Below are positions 41,112-48,533 of a stretch of DNA of 64,000 nt, piece by piece. The stretch's first letter is position 1. Each line of letters starts with the position of its first letter. Source of the stretch: Clostridia bacterium (lineage in GTDB: Bacteria; Bacillota; Clostridia; Oscillospirales; Acutalibacteraceae); contig JAFVVQ010000050.1 of the NCBI GenBank assembly GCA_017502085.1, forward strand, positions 1 to 64,000. Reading direction: 5' to 3'. The translations under genes were made by a program, and so were the position numbers. The notes below the pieces were generated by a model. That model worked only from the letters and a program-made list of their open reading frames with translations. It had not been told where the DNA came from and made no database searches.

Positions 41112-41699
41112 TTATCTCAAATCGTCAAGTGTCAGTTCATAAGCAGGAAGAAACTCCTCAAGAAAAACCTTCGCTTCAGGTACATCAAGGGCTTCAACAC
41201 TTTTTCTGACGCCCTCACCCGCCTTGACAAATTCACTGTTGCCCGCTTTTTTCTCTTCAAGACACTTTATGAGAGCACTGATTTTATCAGCCGCCTTGAC
41301 GAGTTTCCAGAGTTCGGCATCCGCTTCATCGGGAATCAGAAACGGTGAAAAATCGGGTCTGAAATCCTCAGGGAGCATTTCAACAAGGCTTTTGCAAGCA
41401 TTATCCTCAACGGTTTTATATGCCGCTCTTACCTCTTCACTGTAATACTTGACAGGAGTCGGCATATCGCCCGTAAGAGTTTCGGGCATATCGTGATAAA
41501 TGCCAAGCAACGCCGTTCTTTCCGCATTATAATTTCTGCCGAACCGCTTGTTTCCGATAACGGCAAGTGCATTTGCAATCACCGCAACCTCAAAACTGTG
41601 TTCGCTGAGATTTTCGCTGTGCTCGTTTCTCATAAGCGCCCAGCGGTTTATATATTTCATTCTTGACGCCATCGCAAAAAATCCGTTATCCATATACAT
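41112..41699 (-). CDS. yfbR: HD-domain 5'-deoxynucleotidase, YfbR-like
   Basis: The 195-residue protein has the YfbR pattern: MKYINRWALMRNEHSENLSEH in pieces, HSFEVAVIANAL, GIYHDMPETLTGDMPTPVKYY and the later DKISALIKCLEEK. The H...HD...D metal set is intact. YfbR enzymes remove phosphate from deoxynucleoside monophosphates, in nucleotide salvage. GGAGG lies just before the start. Confidence 0.92.
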   Translation of the reverse strand: MYMDNGFFAMASRMKYINRWALMRNEHSENLSEHSFEVAVIANALAVIGNKRFGRNYNAERTALLGIYHDMPETLTGDMPTPVKYYSEEVRAAYKTVEDNACKSLVEMLPEDFRPDFSPFLIPDEADAELWKLVKAADKISALIKCLEEKKAGNSEFVKAGEGVRKSVEALDVPEAKVFLEEFLPAYELTLDDLR

Positions 41700-41743: not shown

Positions 41744-41772
41744 TTGCAACGCCCGATATAGTATATTATAAT
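41744..41772 (+). promoter_or_regulatory. Promoter of the sortase-fusion gene
   Basis: TTGCAA (41744-41749), a 17-base spacer and TATAAT (41767-41772), 30 bases before the start codon. Confidence 0.75.
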
Positions 41773-41802: not shown

Positions 41803-43155
41803 ATGAAACGCTGTCTTGCCTGCTACAAAAAATGTGAAGATTCTGTCACAAGCTGTCCGCACTGCGGTTACGGCTCGGAGAATTTTACGCATAATCCGTC
41901 GGCATTGCCCATCGGCACGGTTATAGGAGAAAGATTCGTTACAGGCAAATCGGTCGAAACAGATAACTGCGGTATCGTATACATAGCACTCGATAAGAAT
42001 TCAAAAAAGATTTGCCGTCTGACCGAATACTTTCCGAAAAACAACGTTGTCTCAAGAAAGGGTAATACTGTTGTTTTCAGCGATATCCCGACGGCAGACG
42101 CACGTATTGACGAAATCTGCAAAAGCAACCCCGACTCCGTCAGAGAAAACGGCACCTGCTATTATCTCCCTGCGGTGAATACGGTCGTAATTCCCGAAGA
42201 AAAAAAGCAAAACAAAAAATCGTTACGCAACGTGTTCCGCGCCGTATCATACACCGCAAGTATCATCTGTCTGATTCTCAGCGTGGGTTATCTTCTCAAC
42301 TATTACGTAATTGAGCCATGGCGCCATAACAAACAGACACAGAATCTCTCGGATATGCTTGAGACTACCGCAATATCAAACACAGATATTGACCCGCTTG
42401 AGCAGGTCAGAAAGGATTATCCGGGCGTTGATTTTCCCGACGGTATGAATCTCGCCTTTGCACTTCTTTATTCTCAGAATCCCGAAATTGCGGGCTGGGT
42501 CAGAATCAACGGAACGGATATCGACTTCGCGGTAATGCAGAGTGAAGACAACAACAAGTACCTTAAGACCGACTTTTTCGGCAAAAGCACAAACTACGGT
42601 CAGCCCTATTTCGACTACCGTAACGCTCTTCGCACACTTGACCGCAACACAATTATTCACGGCCACAATATGCGCCACGACGATAAAATCTTCGGTACGC
42701 TTGAGAAATACAGAAACCCTCAGGCGTTCATCGACGCTCCGATCATCGAGATGAAAACTCTTTACGGCAACTATACGTTCAAAATCTATGCCGTTTTCAT
42801 TGTCAACAGTTCACTCGAACAGGATAACGGCAAACGCTTCTACTATAATTTCACTCAGGCTGCCGACGATGATTTTCAGAAATATCTCACTGAACTTGAT
42901 AAACGCAAACTATATACAACGGGAGTGGACATCACGAAATACGATAAAATCATCACTCTTTCAACCTGCTGTTATGATTTCTACGATGCAAGACTTGCCG
43001 TTGTCGGCAGACTTATTCGTGAGGGTGAAAGCACGGAAATTGACCCGTCGCTGGTAACCGTCAACGAAAATCCGAAATTTCCTCAGGCATATTACGATGC
43101 AACAAAAACGGTAAATCCCTATAAAAATGATGAGCACGTTTTCATGGTGCCGTAA
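41803..43155 (+). CDS. Class B sortase fused to zinc ribbon and degenerate kinase N-lobe
   Basis: The 450-residue protein has four parts. Residues 1-24 form a zinc ribbon (C4, C7, C18, C21). Residues 35-92 resemble the N-lobe start of zinc-ribbon Ser/Thr kinases: LPIGTVIGERFVTGK, then IVYIALDK and EYFPKNNVVSRKGNTVV. The Gly-rich loop is lost (ETDNCG) and the ATP-binding Lys of the usual AIKEYFP is replaced (RLTEYFP). A transmembrane helix lies at about 147-170. The C-terminal domain is a class B sortase with H288 in HGHNM, C389 in ITLSTC and R397. The catalytic domain is on the outside, the kinase-like part inside. No sortase substrate gene or LPXTG-type signal is seen nearby. Confidence 0.85.
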   Translation: MKRCLACYKKCEDSVTSCPHCGYGSENFTHNPSALPIGTVIGERFVTGKSVETDNCGIVYIALDKNSKKICRLTEYFPKNNVVSRKGNTVVFSDIPTADARIDEICKSNPDSVRENGTCYYLPAVNTVVIPEEKKQNKKSLRNVFRAVSYTASIICLILSVGYLLNYYVIEPWRHNKQTQNLSDMLETTAISNTDIDPLEQVRKDYPGVDFPDGMNLAFALLYSQNPEIAGWVRINGTDIDFAVMQSEDNNKYLKTDFFGKSTNYGQPYFDYRNALRTLDRNTIIHGHNMRHDDKIFGTLEKYRNPQAFIDAPIIEMKTLYGNYTFKIYAVFIVNSSLEQDNGKRFYYNFTQAADDDFQKYLTELDKRKLYTTGVDITKYDKIITLSTCCYDFYDARLAVVGRLIREGESTEIDPSLVTVNENPKFPQAYYDATKTVNPYKNDEHVFMVP

Positions 43156-43186
43156 ACTGATTTTGCTGAAAAATTGCATAAAATTG

Positions 43187-43213
43187 ACGGGTGTTTTTCG
43201 GCACCCGTTTTTC
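43187..43213 (+). terminator. Intrinsic terminator
   Basis: ACGGGTG (43187-43193) pairs with CACCCGT (43202-43208), followed by TTTTTC. It ends the sortase transcript. Confidence 0.85.
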
Positions 43214-45007: not shown

Positions 45008-47755
45008 ATGAAAACTGTCAAAAAAAGCATTATTATTACCCTTGCATTTATTCTTACTCTGGCAACAACACTCAATGTCTTTGGTGTCAACTCATCGGAA
45101 ACGTTATCCGAATCCAAGGCTATTGCTTCAGAAAGTACAGAAGTGTCACAAGAGTACATTATCCATGAAGAAACAACCTCACCCAATATAACCGAAACCC
45201 CAAATTCTGATATCAAAGGAAAAATATATGGCATCACCCTTAAGCCTGACAAAATATTTATGCTTCCAAATGATACGTTTCAGCTTGAAGTCAACTTTTT
45301 AACGTCTCCGCCTGAACCTCCACTTCGTACCGATTTTATCGAAGAAGAGGAAACCGAGGTTTTAGTCACCGAAACACAGGTCAATGAAGAATCAACCGAG
45401 TTTTCGGAAACAACATCTGAATTTCAAAATGAAGTGTCCAAAACAGATGAAGTCACAACCTATCCCGATGAAACACCTGAAGCAACCGTTAACGAAACAG
45501 AAGAATATACGGAATTTTCAGAAAGTGTTGCTGATACACAATCAGAAACATATGCAGAGAATACATTGGGAATAATCTCCGATCCCGAATTAACATTGAA
45601 ACCTATTACCAAAGAAGAAGGCGATGAAGATTTGGGGTTGATTTGGAGCAGCAGCGACGAAGCGGTTGCGGCGATCGGCTTAAATGGTTTGATCTATTCC
45701 CGTGAGTTAGGAACGGCAATTGTGACAGCCTCAACCCCTGACGGTATTTTCAGCGCTTCTTGTGAAATTAATGTTGTTGAAAAAGTTCCCGAAGAAAATG
45801 AAAACTCCGCAGTGCCTCTCGGCTCTGATTATAGTGTTGCAATTTCTCCAAACACCACCTGGAGCGACAAGCCACGACATTGGCCCGTAAAACTTGCAAC
45901 CGAATTCAGCGTTAATTTTGATGTTTATAAGTGCGACAATGGCGGAAATTACATAGGCGGTGAAGCTGACATCAGCTCTCTTGTTAACTGGCAAAGCAGT
46001 GACACAAGCGTTGCAACGGTTGATATTTACGGAAGAGTAACAGGACACAAAAACGGCTCAACAACAATCACCGTTTCCGCTAAAAACGGGGATACGATTT
46101 CGGTTTACAACACCGTTCACGTAACAGTTTACACCCCATATTCATCAAATCGACCTGGCATGGCAAAGGCATGGGTTAGCCAATACAAGAGCACTATATC
46201 AGACTGCCACACTGACCGTCAAGCAGGAGTTGTTTCTCCCGGTACTGATTTGATACTTTATGGCACATCGGGCAGCTATATTCTCGGAAGCATTCAGGGC
46301 GAAACAGGCAAATATTTCATGTGGGCAAATAACCTGTATGACAAGACCAACGGAGAAATATACGTATGCAAAAGCGGAAACACCTCGAACACCCACAAAC
46401 ATTGGGATGTTTATAAGAATCAGACTATAAGCCTTAAGCTGACAAGCGGCGATTCCGCAAACTGGACAACCAGCGATTCGAGCATCGCCAAAATCAACAA
46501 CTATACAACTTATACAGGCAGAACAGCCACAATCACCCCTATCGCTGAAGGCACCGCTTACATTACCGTAACCAGCGGCGGAAAAATTGAAGTTGTCCAC
46601 GTTACGGTAATTACGAGGTTTTATGATGAATATGGTGTTTCGGAAAACAAAGTTGGCACTACAAAAGTGTGGTGCAACAACTTTAAATGCAGCCACACAA
46701 AATGTACAACTCTTGACAGAAAAGACAGCATAACAAACGAAAAAATCACCGTCACTTTGTACGGGCAAAGCGGTGGTTTCTATTATGCCAATCCCGTAGG
46801 CACAGATAAATACATATATATTTGGAAAAGCAATGTCGTATTACAAGATTTTAATATGCATTGCAAACTTGTAAACAGAGATGTTAATGACAATGAATCT
46901 ATGTATGTACCGCAGGGTTTTGCAGTCGGACAAAACGAGTGTTACTATATTGAAGTTCGCGGAACACCTAGTGCAGAGACCGACCACAGACTTTTCCGTT
47001 ATGATGTAAACACAAGAGAATTAACTCAAATGTCAAAAAAAGAACCTATCGGCAATCTTTGGCACGCAAACGATGCCGCTGTTGTTGAATTCACCGAAAA
47101 CGGCAAAAATGTGCCCTATCTGTTTGTTGCTGCTTTCTCAATGTTAGAGCAAAACTATATAGTAAAACTTGGTTTTGACGGCAATGAATACTATGAGGTG
47201 GTAAGATACGATTTGCCGTCTAACACCATCATATCAGGTATAACTTTGTTGTCCGGCGGCGGCAATCAGTCTGCTGTTTTTTTGCTCAGGGATAGATACA
47301 ATAGGTTTTACGAAGTAACGATTCCTAATGATTATTCTAACCCCGGTGATGACGGATTAACTCATATCTCTCTCAACCTGCCATCACCTAAATTTACACT
47401 TAACACAGAAAATATTAGTGGTGGTGCTCAATCCATATGCTACGATCAGGCAACCCAAAAGCTGTATCTTCCGTATGCCAATATAAGCAGAAACAATACT
47501 AATAGAATATATGTTTATGAAGATATTCAAAACGCAAGCGGTACCTTGTCTTTCGACGATGTATATGATATAAATATATACATTTCTGACACACTAACTT
47601 CAGAATATTATTTTGAACTTGAAGGAATAGGTTTCAGACCTGCTTCAAAAGGTGATAACAGAATGTGGTTTTTAACTTTTGAGAAAGATTCAGGAGATAG
47701 CGGAATATACACTTCAATAAGATATGACAGAAACGGAGAAATCATAAATGGTTAG
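45008..47755 (+). CDS. Large secreted multi-domain Ig-like surface protein
   Basis: The 915-residue protein has a signal peptide (about 1-27). A BIG2-type domain starts at about 75 (ITLKPDKIFMLPNDTF), is broken by about 100 residues rich in Glu and Thr, and resumes with LIWSSSDEAVAAIGLNG. A second BIG2 domain (about 275-378) is followed by two related SH3-like units (KAWVSQY... and KVWCNNF..., each ending in a FMWANN or YIWKSN strand) separated by a third Ig-like domain. The last 290 residues have repeated strand patterns (QGFAVGQNECYYIEV, SICYDQATQKLYLPYA) like a beta-propeller. No cell-wall sorting signal is seen. Base use is more AT-rich than in neighbouring genes. Its stop overlaps the next gene. 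Confidence 0.75.
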   Translation: MKTVKKSIIITLAFILTLATTLNVFGVNSSETLSESKAIASESTEVSQEYIIHEETTSPNITETPNSDIKGKIYGITLKPDKIFMLPNDTFQLEVNFLTSPPEPPLRTDFIEEEETEVLVTETQVNEESTEFSETTSEFQNEVSKTDEVTTYPDETPEATVNETEEYTEFSESVADTQSETYAENTLGIISDPELTLKPITKEEGDEDLGLIWSSSDEAVAAIGLNGLIYSRELGTAIVTASTPDGIFSASCEINVVEKVPEENENSAVPLGSDYSVAISPNTTWSDKPRHWPVKLATEFSVNFDVYKCDNGGNYIGGEADISSLVNWQSSDTSVATVDIYGRVTGHKNGSTTITVSAKNGDTISVYNTVHVTVYTPYSSNRPGMAKAWVSQYKSTISDCHTDRQAGVVSPGTDLILYGTSGSYILGSIQGETGKYFMWANNLYDKTNGEIYVCKSGNTSNTHKHWDVYKNQTISLKLTSGDSANWTTSDSSIAKINNYTTYTGRTATITPIAEGTAYITVTSGGKIEVVHVTVITRFYDEYGVSENKVGTTKVWCNNFKCSHTKCTTLDRKDSITNEKITVTLYGQSGGFYYANPVGTDKYIYIWKSNVVLQDFNMHCKLVNRDVNDNESMYVPQGFAVGQNECYYIEVRGTPSAETDHRLFRYDVNTRELTQMSKKEPIGNLWHANDAAVVEFTENGKNVPYLFVAAFSMLEQNYIVKLGFDGNEYYEVVRYDLPSNTIISGITLLSGGGNQSAVFLLRDRYNRFYEVTIPNDYSNPGDDGLTHISLNLPSPKFTLNTENISGGAQSICYDQATQKLYLPYANISRNNTNRIYVYEDIQNASGTLSFDDVYDINIYISDTLTSEYYFELEGIGFRPASKGDNRMWFLTFEKDSGDSGIYTSIRYDRNGEIING

Positions 47756-48533
47756 AAATAAAATTATAATTTTAGCACTATGCTTAACTGTTATTTTTTT
47801 ATGTTCATGTACCCAAAACAGCAGCACAGACAATACAACATCAATTAATACTACCTCAACAGAGAAAAAGACACCAATCATCACAACAACAAAAACAACA
47901 ACAGACGAGTCCGCTATTCCCGAATTTTCAACCGTTAAAATCAAAACCTCGCCTGATGATCCCTATTCTTTCTTCATTAAAGAAAGATATGAAAAATTCA
48001 TCGAGTCGCTAAGTCATTATGAGCCTGAAGAATATGCCGCTTTCTACAAACGTGCCAGAAATATCTATTATTTTCTCTATGACCTCGACAAGGACGGCAC
48101 TGACGAACTCATAATGGGTGATTGGAAAAAAATGACTATTGATGTTGAAGACCCAAACCCGCCTAAAAAAATCTTTATATCCAGTATTTATACAATAAAA
48201 AACGGCGAAGTTATGGAGATAAACACATACCCTTGGCTGCCTGATGATTATATTTGGGACAGAGTTCTCCTGACTAACGGTTTAATCAGAACAAGTTTTG
48301 GTTATGAGGAATATCCAAACTATTACTTTTTAGGCTTTAAAAACGGAGAAGCTGTATTAAATTGTGCAATTTACTACTATAAAAGCAACGATGGTTACGT
48401 ACAGCAATTTGCCGATATCAACACCAGCATTGATATAACAAAAGAAGAATTTGAGCGTTTGCGCGATGAAGCGAACGGCGACGCAGAGGTTGTGGAAATC
48501 AACTGGAAACGCATTGACGAATACGGTAAATAA
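47748..48533 (+). CDS. Lipoprotein partner of the Ig-like surface protein
   Basis: The 261-residue protein begins in the last eight bases of the Ig-like gene and has a lipoprotein signal ending in FLCSC (Cys near residue 21). A Thr/Ser-rich linker of about 45 residues follows, then a domain with YFLYDLDKDGTDELIMGDW, an EF-hand-like calcium-binding loop common in Clostridia lipoproteins, and a closing charged segment. Coupled translation suggests that it works with the upstream protein at the cell surface. Function unknown. Confidence 0.75.
   Translation: MVRNKIIILALCLTVIFLCSCTQNSSTDNTTSINTTSTEKKTPIITTTKTTTDESAIPEFSTVKIKTSPDDPYSFFIKERYEKFIESLSHYEPEEYAAFYKRARNIYYFLYDLDKDGTDELIMGDWKKMTIDVEDPNPPKKIFISSIYTIKNGEVMEINTYPWLPDDYIWDRVLLTNGLIRTSFGYEEYPNYYFLGFKNGEAVLNCAIYYYKSNDGYVQQFADINTSIDITKEEFERLRDEANGDAEVVEINWKRIDEYGK

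Follow-up and report, generated by a model that had tools for sequence, protein, structure and literature searches.

To our knowledge, sortases are generally regarded as enzymes of the outer face that lack a control domain inside the cell, the inner tail of described SrtB proteins is short only, and isolated kinase N-lobes are very unusual. Among pseudokinase proteins of the membrane, EssB/YukC has an extracellular part that is not an enzyme, and MviN, with its many membrane spans, is a lipid II flippase and not a transpeptidase. According to PMC9600267, YukC/EssB comprises a cytosolic pseudokinase, a membrane helix, and an extracellular domain, and it is by way of the cytosolic pseudokinase that the protein binds its partner YukB; the extracellular part of EssB is helical (PMC3694306). 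PMC12599244 describes MviN as a back-to-back dimer in which the constraints of the family are concentrated at the interface, in the N-lobe, and its text contains no mention of 'sortase' or of 'zinc'. A sequence-only reading of 64,000 nucleotides of Clostridia DNA (the window, meaning the whole stretch analysed) had proposed a gene that joins a zinc ribbon and a degenerate kinase N-lobe to a sortase, an architecture it did not know from described sortases; we likewise found no sortase-kinase fusion in the literature searched. As far as our searches show, this is an undescribed domain architecture of a known enzyme class, present in one genus of uncultured Clostridia.

The gene is a plus-strand open reading frame at 41803-43155 that starts with ATG and encodes 450 aa. 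Its parts and immediate surroundings are listed below.

41112..41699, minus strand: divergent neighbour, presumably HD-domain-like (named from its motif), the synteny anchor
41744..41772, plus strand: promoter-like TTGCAA-17-TATAAT upstream of the gene, by consensus scan only (11 such sites in the region against 4.0 in shuffles)
41803..43155, plus strand: whole gene of 450 aa, with zinc ribbon, kinase N-lobe, membrane helix, and class B sortase
41803..41874, plus strand: zinc ribbon, residues 1-24, with C4/C7/C18/C21, by alignment and identity among short forms
41899..42171, plus strand: degenerate kinase N-lobe, residues 33-123, by profile match, AlphaFold2 model, and motif script
42172..42240, plus strand: basic juxtamembrane stretch, the place of the kinase C-lobe loss, by alignments
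42241..42297, plus strand: membrane helix, residues 147-165, N-terminus probably inside by the positive-inside rule
42448..43026, plus strand: class B sortase domain, residues 216-408, by PF04203, TIGR03064, and SrtB chain alignments
42664..42666, plus strand: predicted catalytic His288, by alignment
42967..42969, plus strand: predicted catalytic Cys389, by alignment
42991..42993, plus strand: predicted catalytic Arg397, by alignment
43027..43152, plus strand: C-terminal tail, residues 409-450, with NPKFPQAYYDA and NPYKNDE, similar in 13 aligned fused forms
43186..43209, plus strand: terminator-like hairpin and T tail directly 3' of the gene, by consensus scan only (6 such sites in the region against 1.7 in shuffles)

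The gene's neighbours, named from sequence and ORF lists, presumably correspond to rimP, nusA, and infB, and those in relatives also to shikimate-pathway-like genes. Further along the window, a 915-aa ORF at 45008-47755 carries bacterial Ig-like repeats (Big_2) and an N-terminal region rich in Glu/Thr; after it, at 47748-48533, comes an ORF of 261 aa that resembles a lipoprotein and matches Imm41 weakly.

The outer part had been read as a complete class B sortase, and the profile evidence bears this out. PF04203 matched the protein above its cut-off (E 4.9e-9), TIGR03064 (class B) matched with E 1.4e-40 and 139.1 bits, short of its equivalog cut-off of 153.75, and solved SrtB chains matched at E ~1e-27 (phmmer); most of the 15 matched PDB sequences are named sortase B. 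His-288, Cys-389, and Arg-397 align with the catalytic residues of sortases. By these alignments the ORF is a class B sortase, closest to SrtB, with predicted transpeptidase activity. A single membrane helix at ~147-165 links it to the inner part, as the sequence-only reading had proposed, and the sortase match begins ~50 residues beyond it. Because 6 of the 15 residues ahead of the helix are Lys or Arg, the N-terminus probably lies inside the cell. The zinc ribbon has the spacing C4-x2-C7...C18-x2-C21; Pfam zinc-ribbon models reached only sub-threshold scores on the protein (E 0.06-0.26, one 0.82), and the alignment shows the four cysteines retained in 15 of 16 fused proteins.

Pfam gave no kinase match in the window protein. 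The inner part was searched with a profile built from the genus's own zinc-ribbon kinases: 23 zinc-ribbon ORFs were extracted (3 plus 20 chosen from the matches listed in a 60-genome search), the 8 in which a script found two or more of the motifs VAIK Lys, HRD, and DFG (4 with all three) were kept, the other 15 were excluded, and the zinc ribbon was removed before the search. This profile search had been set beforehand as the test that could refute the kinase likeness. Residues 25-129, likewise without the ribbon, matched with E 2.1e-11 over residues 30-91; among 1000 shuffled sequences, 500 derived from short forms of the family (defined below), the top score was E 0.53. The same profile found the remaining three short forms at 9.5e-11 to 3.2e-8 and nine long forms at 2.3e-42 to 8.8e-33. 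Profile-profile comparison with the zinc-ribbon kinases scored 98.0% for the short forms (E 1.6e-13, 95 columns, residues 29-123) and 99.9% for the long forms (263 columns).

Structure prediction, which had been proposed as a check, gave a complete kinase N-lobe for residues 1-135 (AlphaFold2, pLDDT 88.2, pTM 0.80, from an input alignment of 16 rows, 12 of them long forms). The modelled strands span 45-53, 57-64, 69-76, 82-86, 89-92, 113-115, and 118-121, with a helix at 95-108, so that beta1-beta3, alphaC (95-108), beta4, and beta5 are all represented, without GxGxxG and without the VAIK Lys. A zinc ribbon followed by the start of a kinase lacking the Gly loop and the ATP Lys had thus been read correctly from the letters; HRD and DFG are absent from the window protein as well. 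The sequence-only reading had confined the kinase-like part to the first 92 residues: the likeness holds, and the boundary moves, since both the profile-profile match and the model extend to beta5 at ~121-123.

The fusion occurs in at least 16 of 45 genomes of the genus, 4 with a short and 12 with a long form (at least 14 of 37 in the first search, which covered 60 genomes in all, and 2 of 8 in a further search); many of these genomes are incomplete, so absence is not provable genome by genome. A search of GTDB species genomes returned 66 loci: 15 are fused (3 short and 12 long forms), and the remaining 51 were read as other sortase genes. For 13 of the 15 fused loci the record title mentions a ruminant host; for two it mentions none. 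Outside the genus, no match spanning kinase and sortase was present among those listed from samples of the order (394 genomes, E up to 1e-10), the family (398, 1e-60), and the phylum (398, 1e-45). The wider search scored at most 3 candidates per genome and was blind to the short-form N-lobe, including the one encoded in the window's genome; fusions elsewhere that are divergent or resemble the short form may therefore have been missed.

The short forms (449-454 aa) are the window gene, L051, L052, and L053. The long forms (599-622 aa; L054-L065) consist of a zinc ribbon, a full-length kinase-like domain, the same membrane helix, and a sortase, the zinc ribbon being present in 11 of the 12 and missing in L059. 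Residues 1-308 of L060 were modelled as a two-lobed kinase (AlphaFold2, pLDDT 91.4, pTM 0.87), and a profile of the 12 long and 4 short forms found PpkA, PknA, StkP, and PknB in the PDB (E 8.7e-19 to ~1e-9). On five long forms, Pfam Pkinase matched four below threshold, one of them only at E 0.1, and did not match the fifth. The VAIK Lys is absent from all 16 fused proteins; HRD is changed to HG(S/C/G/A) in 12/12 long forms, and DFG to TGY or SGY in 11 of them by script and to TGL in the twelfth by eye. From these substitutions the kinase-like domain of the long forms looks dead. An active Hanks-type kinase is rejected, the catalytic motifs being absent in the window protein and in all 12 long forms. 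The long forms fit a pseudokinase by sequence and model; the window protein holds the N-lobe alone, without a C-lobe. At the sortase end, Arg is replaced by Lys, Asn, or Ser in 3 of the 16 fused proteins (the long forms L058, L064, and L065), in which His and Cys are still present. Separately, the window's own genome encodes a zinc-ribbon PASTA protein (contig C60, L032:5671-7569) whose degenerate kinase domain has HRG and GFC in place of HRD and DFG, and several other genomes of the genus have proteins with similar N-termini and motifs.

Short forms 58-69% identical to the window protein stand at the same locus in the genomes of three other species, which answers the earlier concern about an assembly error. 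All 16 fused genes lie within ~2 kb of one HD-like gene (coordinates read by eye); the HD-like gene was found automatically at 11 of 30 neighbour loci with 1.5 kb flanks, and at 5 more fused genes just past the flank. Aligned with the long forms, the short forms are missing everything between the hinge and the C-lobe's end, together with 15-17 residues near where alphaC ends. In a tree of 31 proteins (the 16 fused ones and 15 other sortases hand-picked from the 51), the short forms make up one clade (support 100/99), and the fused forms are set apart from the other sortases (95/89). Since 12 further species of the genus carry the full-length pseudokinase, the window gene is, by these alignments, derived from such a form by a deletion that removed the C-lobe and left the N-lobe; the degenerate N-lobe is thus the remainder of a whole pseudokinase, a point that goes beyond the sequence-only reading. 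A tree of the neighbour gene (26 rows, 4 of 30 not being extractable) places G063, a 95% complete genome in which no fused gene was seen, with the four short-form genomes (99/98). The fused gene can apparently be lost and is dispensable, as G063 belongs to the short-form clade and shows none.

In five hand-picked pairs of long forms, omega was 0.04-0.12 for the N-lobe (4 pairs computable) and 0.08-0.17 for the column block with the C-lobe and membrane helix (5/5 pairs). These ratios indicate that the pseudokinase of the long forms is under purifying selection, and hence that a dead kinase is kept for something. Among the six short-form pairs, synonymous sites are mostly or nearly saturated, and omega for the N-lobe was computable in three (0.23, 0.24, and 0.44). 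The four short forms are 75-88% identical in the zinc ribbon, 37-52% in the N-lobe, and 68-80% in the sortase; LPIGT, TGK, Y-x-A-x-D, EY-x-P, and N-x-T-x-Y are invariant in all four.

The explanation that we consider best, and on which we are evenly poised, would start from a gene for a class B sortase, paralogous to the other membrane sortases of the genus, which gained its cytoplasmic part from a zinc-ribbon transmembrane kinase by taking over the kinase's inner half. The kinase part would have lost catalysis, and selection would have maintained it as a pseudokinase. The common ancestor of the window species and its three relatives would then have lost all of the C-lobe and some of alphaC by deletion, so that the zinc ribbon and N-lobe remained as a platform for binding and dimerisation. 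Through the N-lobe face and the ribbon, this platform may dock the sortase to secretion or division machinery or to a second kinase or pseudokinase of the membrane, which would let the extracellular transpeptidase act where and when its cargo emerges; possible partners are the best Pkinase match in the window's own genome (C19:13155, E 1e-58) and the zinc-ribbon PASTA pseudokinase of C60. Because the C-lobe could be lost while the ribbon and N-lobe were kept, a docking or dimerising surface fits better than nucleotide or substrate binding. Leaning slightly to doubt, we further propose that the family is a pseudokinase-controlled sortase, one clade of which was reduced to an isolated N-lobe, retained as the minimum needed for dimerisation or docking. 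Against a platform stand the fast divergence of the short-form N-lobe, the lack of the gene in G063 and of the zinc ribbon in L059, and the three long forms with a replaced Arg.

The same fast divergence, together with the near-saturated synonymous sites, means that the short-form N-lobe may be slowly decaying baggage. The pseudokinase would then have worked in the long forms, and its remnant in the short forms would do no more than anchor or stabilise the N-terminus of a sortase that acts by itself. The low N-lobe identity, the loss of the C-lobe and part of alphaC, and the clade member without the gene all suit this reading, which we nevertheless hold to be unlikely: the zinc ribbon is better conserved among the same proteins, the five landmarks are invariant, omega stays below 0.45 in every computable pair, and the N-lobe fold is predicted with confidence. 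Improbable, in our judgement, is an allosteric sensor whose cytoplasmic part binds a ligand or phosphorylated partner and switches the sortase across the membrane. A kinase-like part inside and a single membrane helix, the layout of transmembrane kinases, and a pseudokinase fold under constraint would agree with such a switch, but one helix and ~50 residues before the sortase match offer weak mechanical coupling, and the Gly loop and ATP Lys are gone, as is DFG in the long forms. Docking or dimerisation seems at least as likely as sensing. We reject, with practically no credence left to it, a fusion created by assembly or annotation or a kinase likeness by chance, because one open frame at one locus in 16 genomes, the shuffle control, and the profile-profile match outweigh the origin of the GTDB fused loci in metagenome assemblies and the missing Pfam match.

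On docking by a retained pseudokinase part, the architecture suggests that surface-protein anchoring is steered from inside the cell: a sortase joined to a conserved pseudokinase would be genetic evidence that cell-wall anchoring is controlled or placed from there. The series within one genus, from whole pseudokinase to N-lobe only to no gene, would show which part of a pseudokinase is sufficient.

The sequence-only reading had suggested a search for substrates. The window's own genome holds three candidate cargo proteins with IPNTG, IPSTG, or IPVTG, a hydrophobic stretch, and a basic tail, the third of them below the model cut-off; TIGR03063, the SrtB-target model, gave no match above cut-off, and a private substrate of the fused sortase was not found among 40 tails chosen from the matches listed. 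Since a protein search found three sortases in this genome, the IPxTG signals are unassignable to the window sortase, and the other two, on contig C12, could also handle this candidate cargo. A PF04203 search of the same genome reported one sortase, which apparently reflects the initial filter of that search, as the window protein itself matches PF04203. Those two lie side by side (L031:9349-12616) and adjoin a cinA-like gene; one has ~500 residues with an acidic start ahead of its sortase domain. IPxTG occurs in 20/20 chosen tails from fused genomes, and the first residue in 20 tails from fusion-less genomes is I (8), V (6), T (2), A (2; one, L269, a mis-scored VPNTG), L (1), or N (1). The motif follows kinship and assigns nothing, because fusion-less genomes, G063 and G001 included, have it too. 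Just past the window, at C52:65719-65832, lies a small surface protein with an IPNTG sorting signal in a 162-aa frame, and similar short proteins, with I, V, or N first in a PxTGS signal, occur in many of the genus genomes examined. Among the best 30 anchor-signal loci listed, LPxTG was present in 18 of 21 from fusion-less genomes (of these 21, L248 yielded no motif) and in 0 of 9 from fused genomes; the LPxTG loci, among L235-L252 and L255, are presumably pilin-like.

The fused family can be set against several known systems. With the genus's zinc-ribbon Hanks-type kinases (comparison set L046, L047, L131, L132, L133, L136, L141, and L142) it shares the zinc ribbon, the L-x-x-GT...RY...GK and EYxP-type landmarks, and the N-lobe likeness. 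Those kinases differ in having the VAIK Lys, HRD, and DFG in 4 of 8 and two of the three in the other 4 (by script), and, in the two whose C-terminal part was inspected, in carrying DUF6273 (L047) or a long repeat-rich tail (L046) and no sortase. CinA-sortase fusions (L048, L049, and L050) also place a cytoplasmic domain ahead of the sortase membrane helix, but the inner domain is CinA, not a kinase, and the locus is another. These in-frame fusions of a sortase behind CinA (PF02464), at L049:8336-10573, L048:8616-10424, and L050:8202-10925, come from three other families of the order, and the CinA part of L049 also has molybdopterin-binding and KH domains; further CinA-like starts were seen by eye in L102, L104, and L113. 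No sortase-CinA fusion was found in the literature searched.

Class B sortases such as SrtB have the same catalytic domain, His/Cys/Arg, and N-terminal membrane helix; the window family differs by bearing, on the inner side, a zinc ribbon joined either to a kinase N-lobe or to an entire pseudokinase. MviN of mycobacteria, an ActPs3 pseudokinase, is likewise a membrane-linked pseudokinase tied to the cell wall (PMC12599244). EssB/YukC of type VIIb secretion shares the order of cytosolic pseudokinase, one helix, and extracellular domain, whereas the window short form lacks a C-lobe and has a sortase where EssB/YukC has a helical extracellular part. By analogy with the pseudokinases of EssB/YukC and MviN, the inner part of the fused protein probably serves for docking or dimerisation and in this way positions or gates the sortase.
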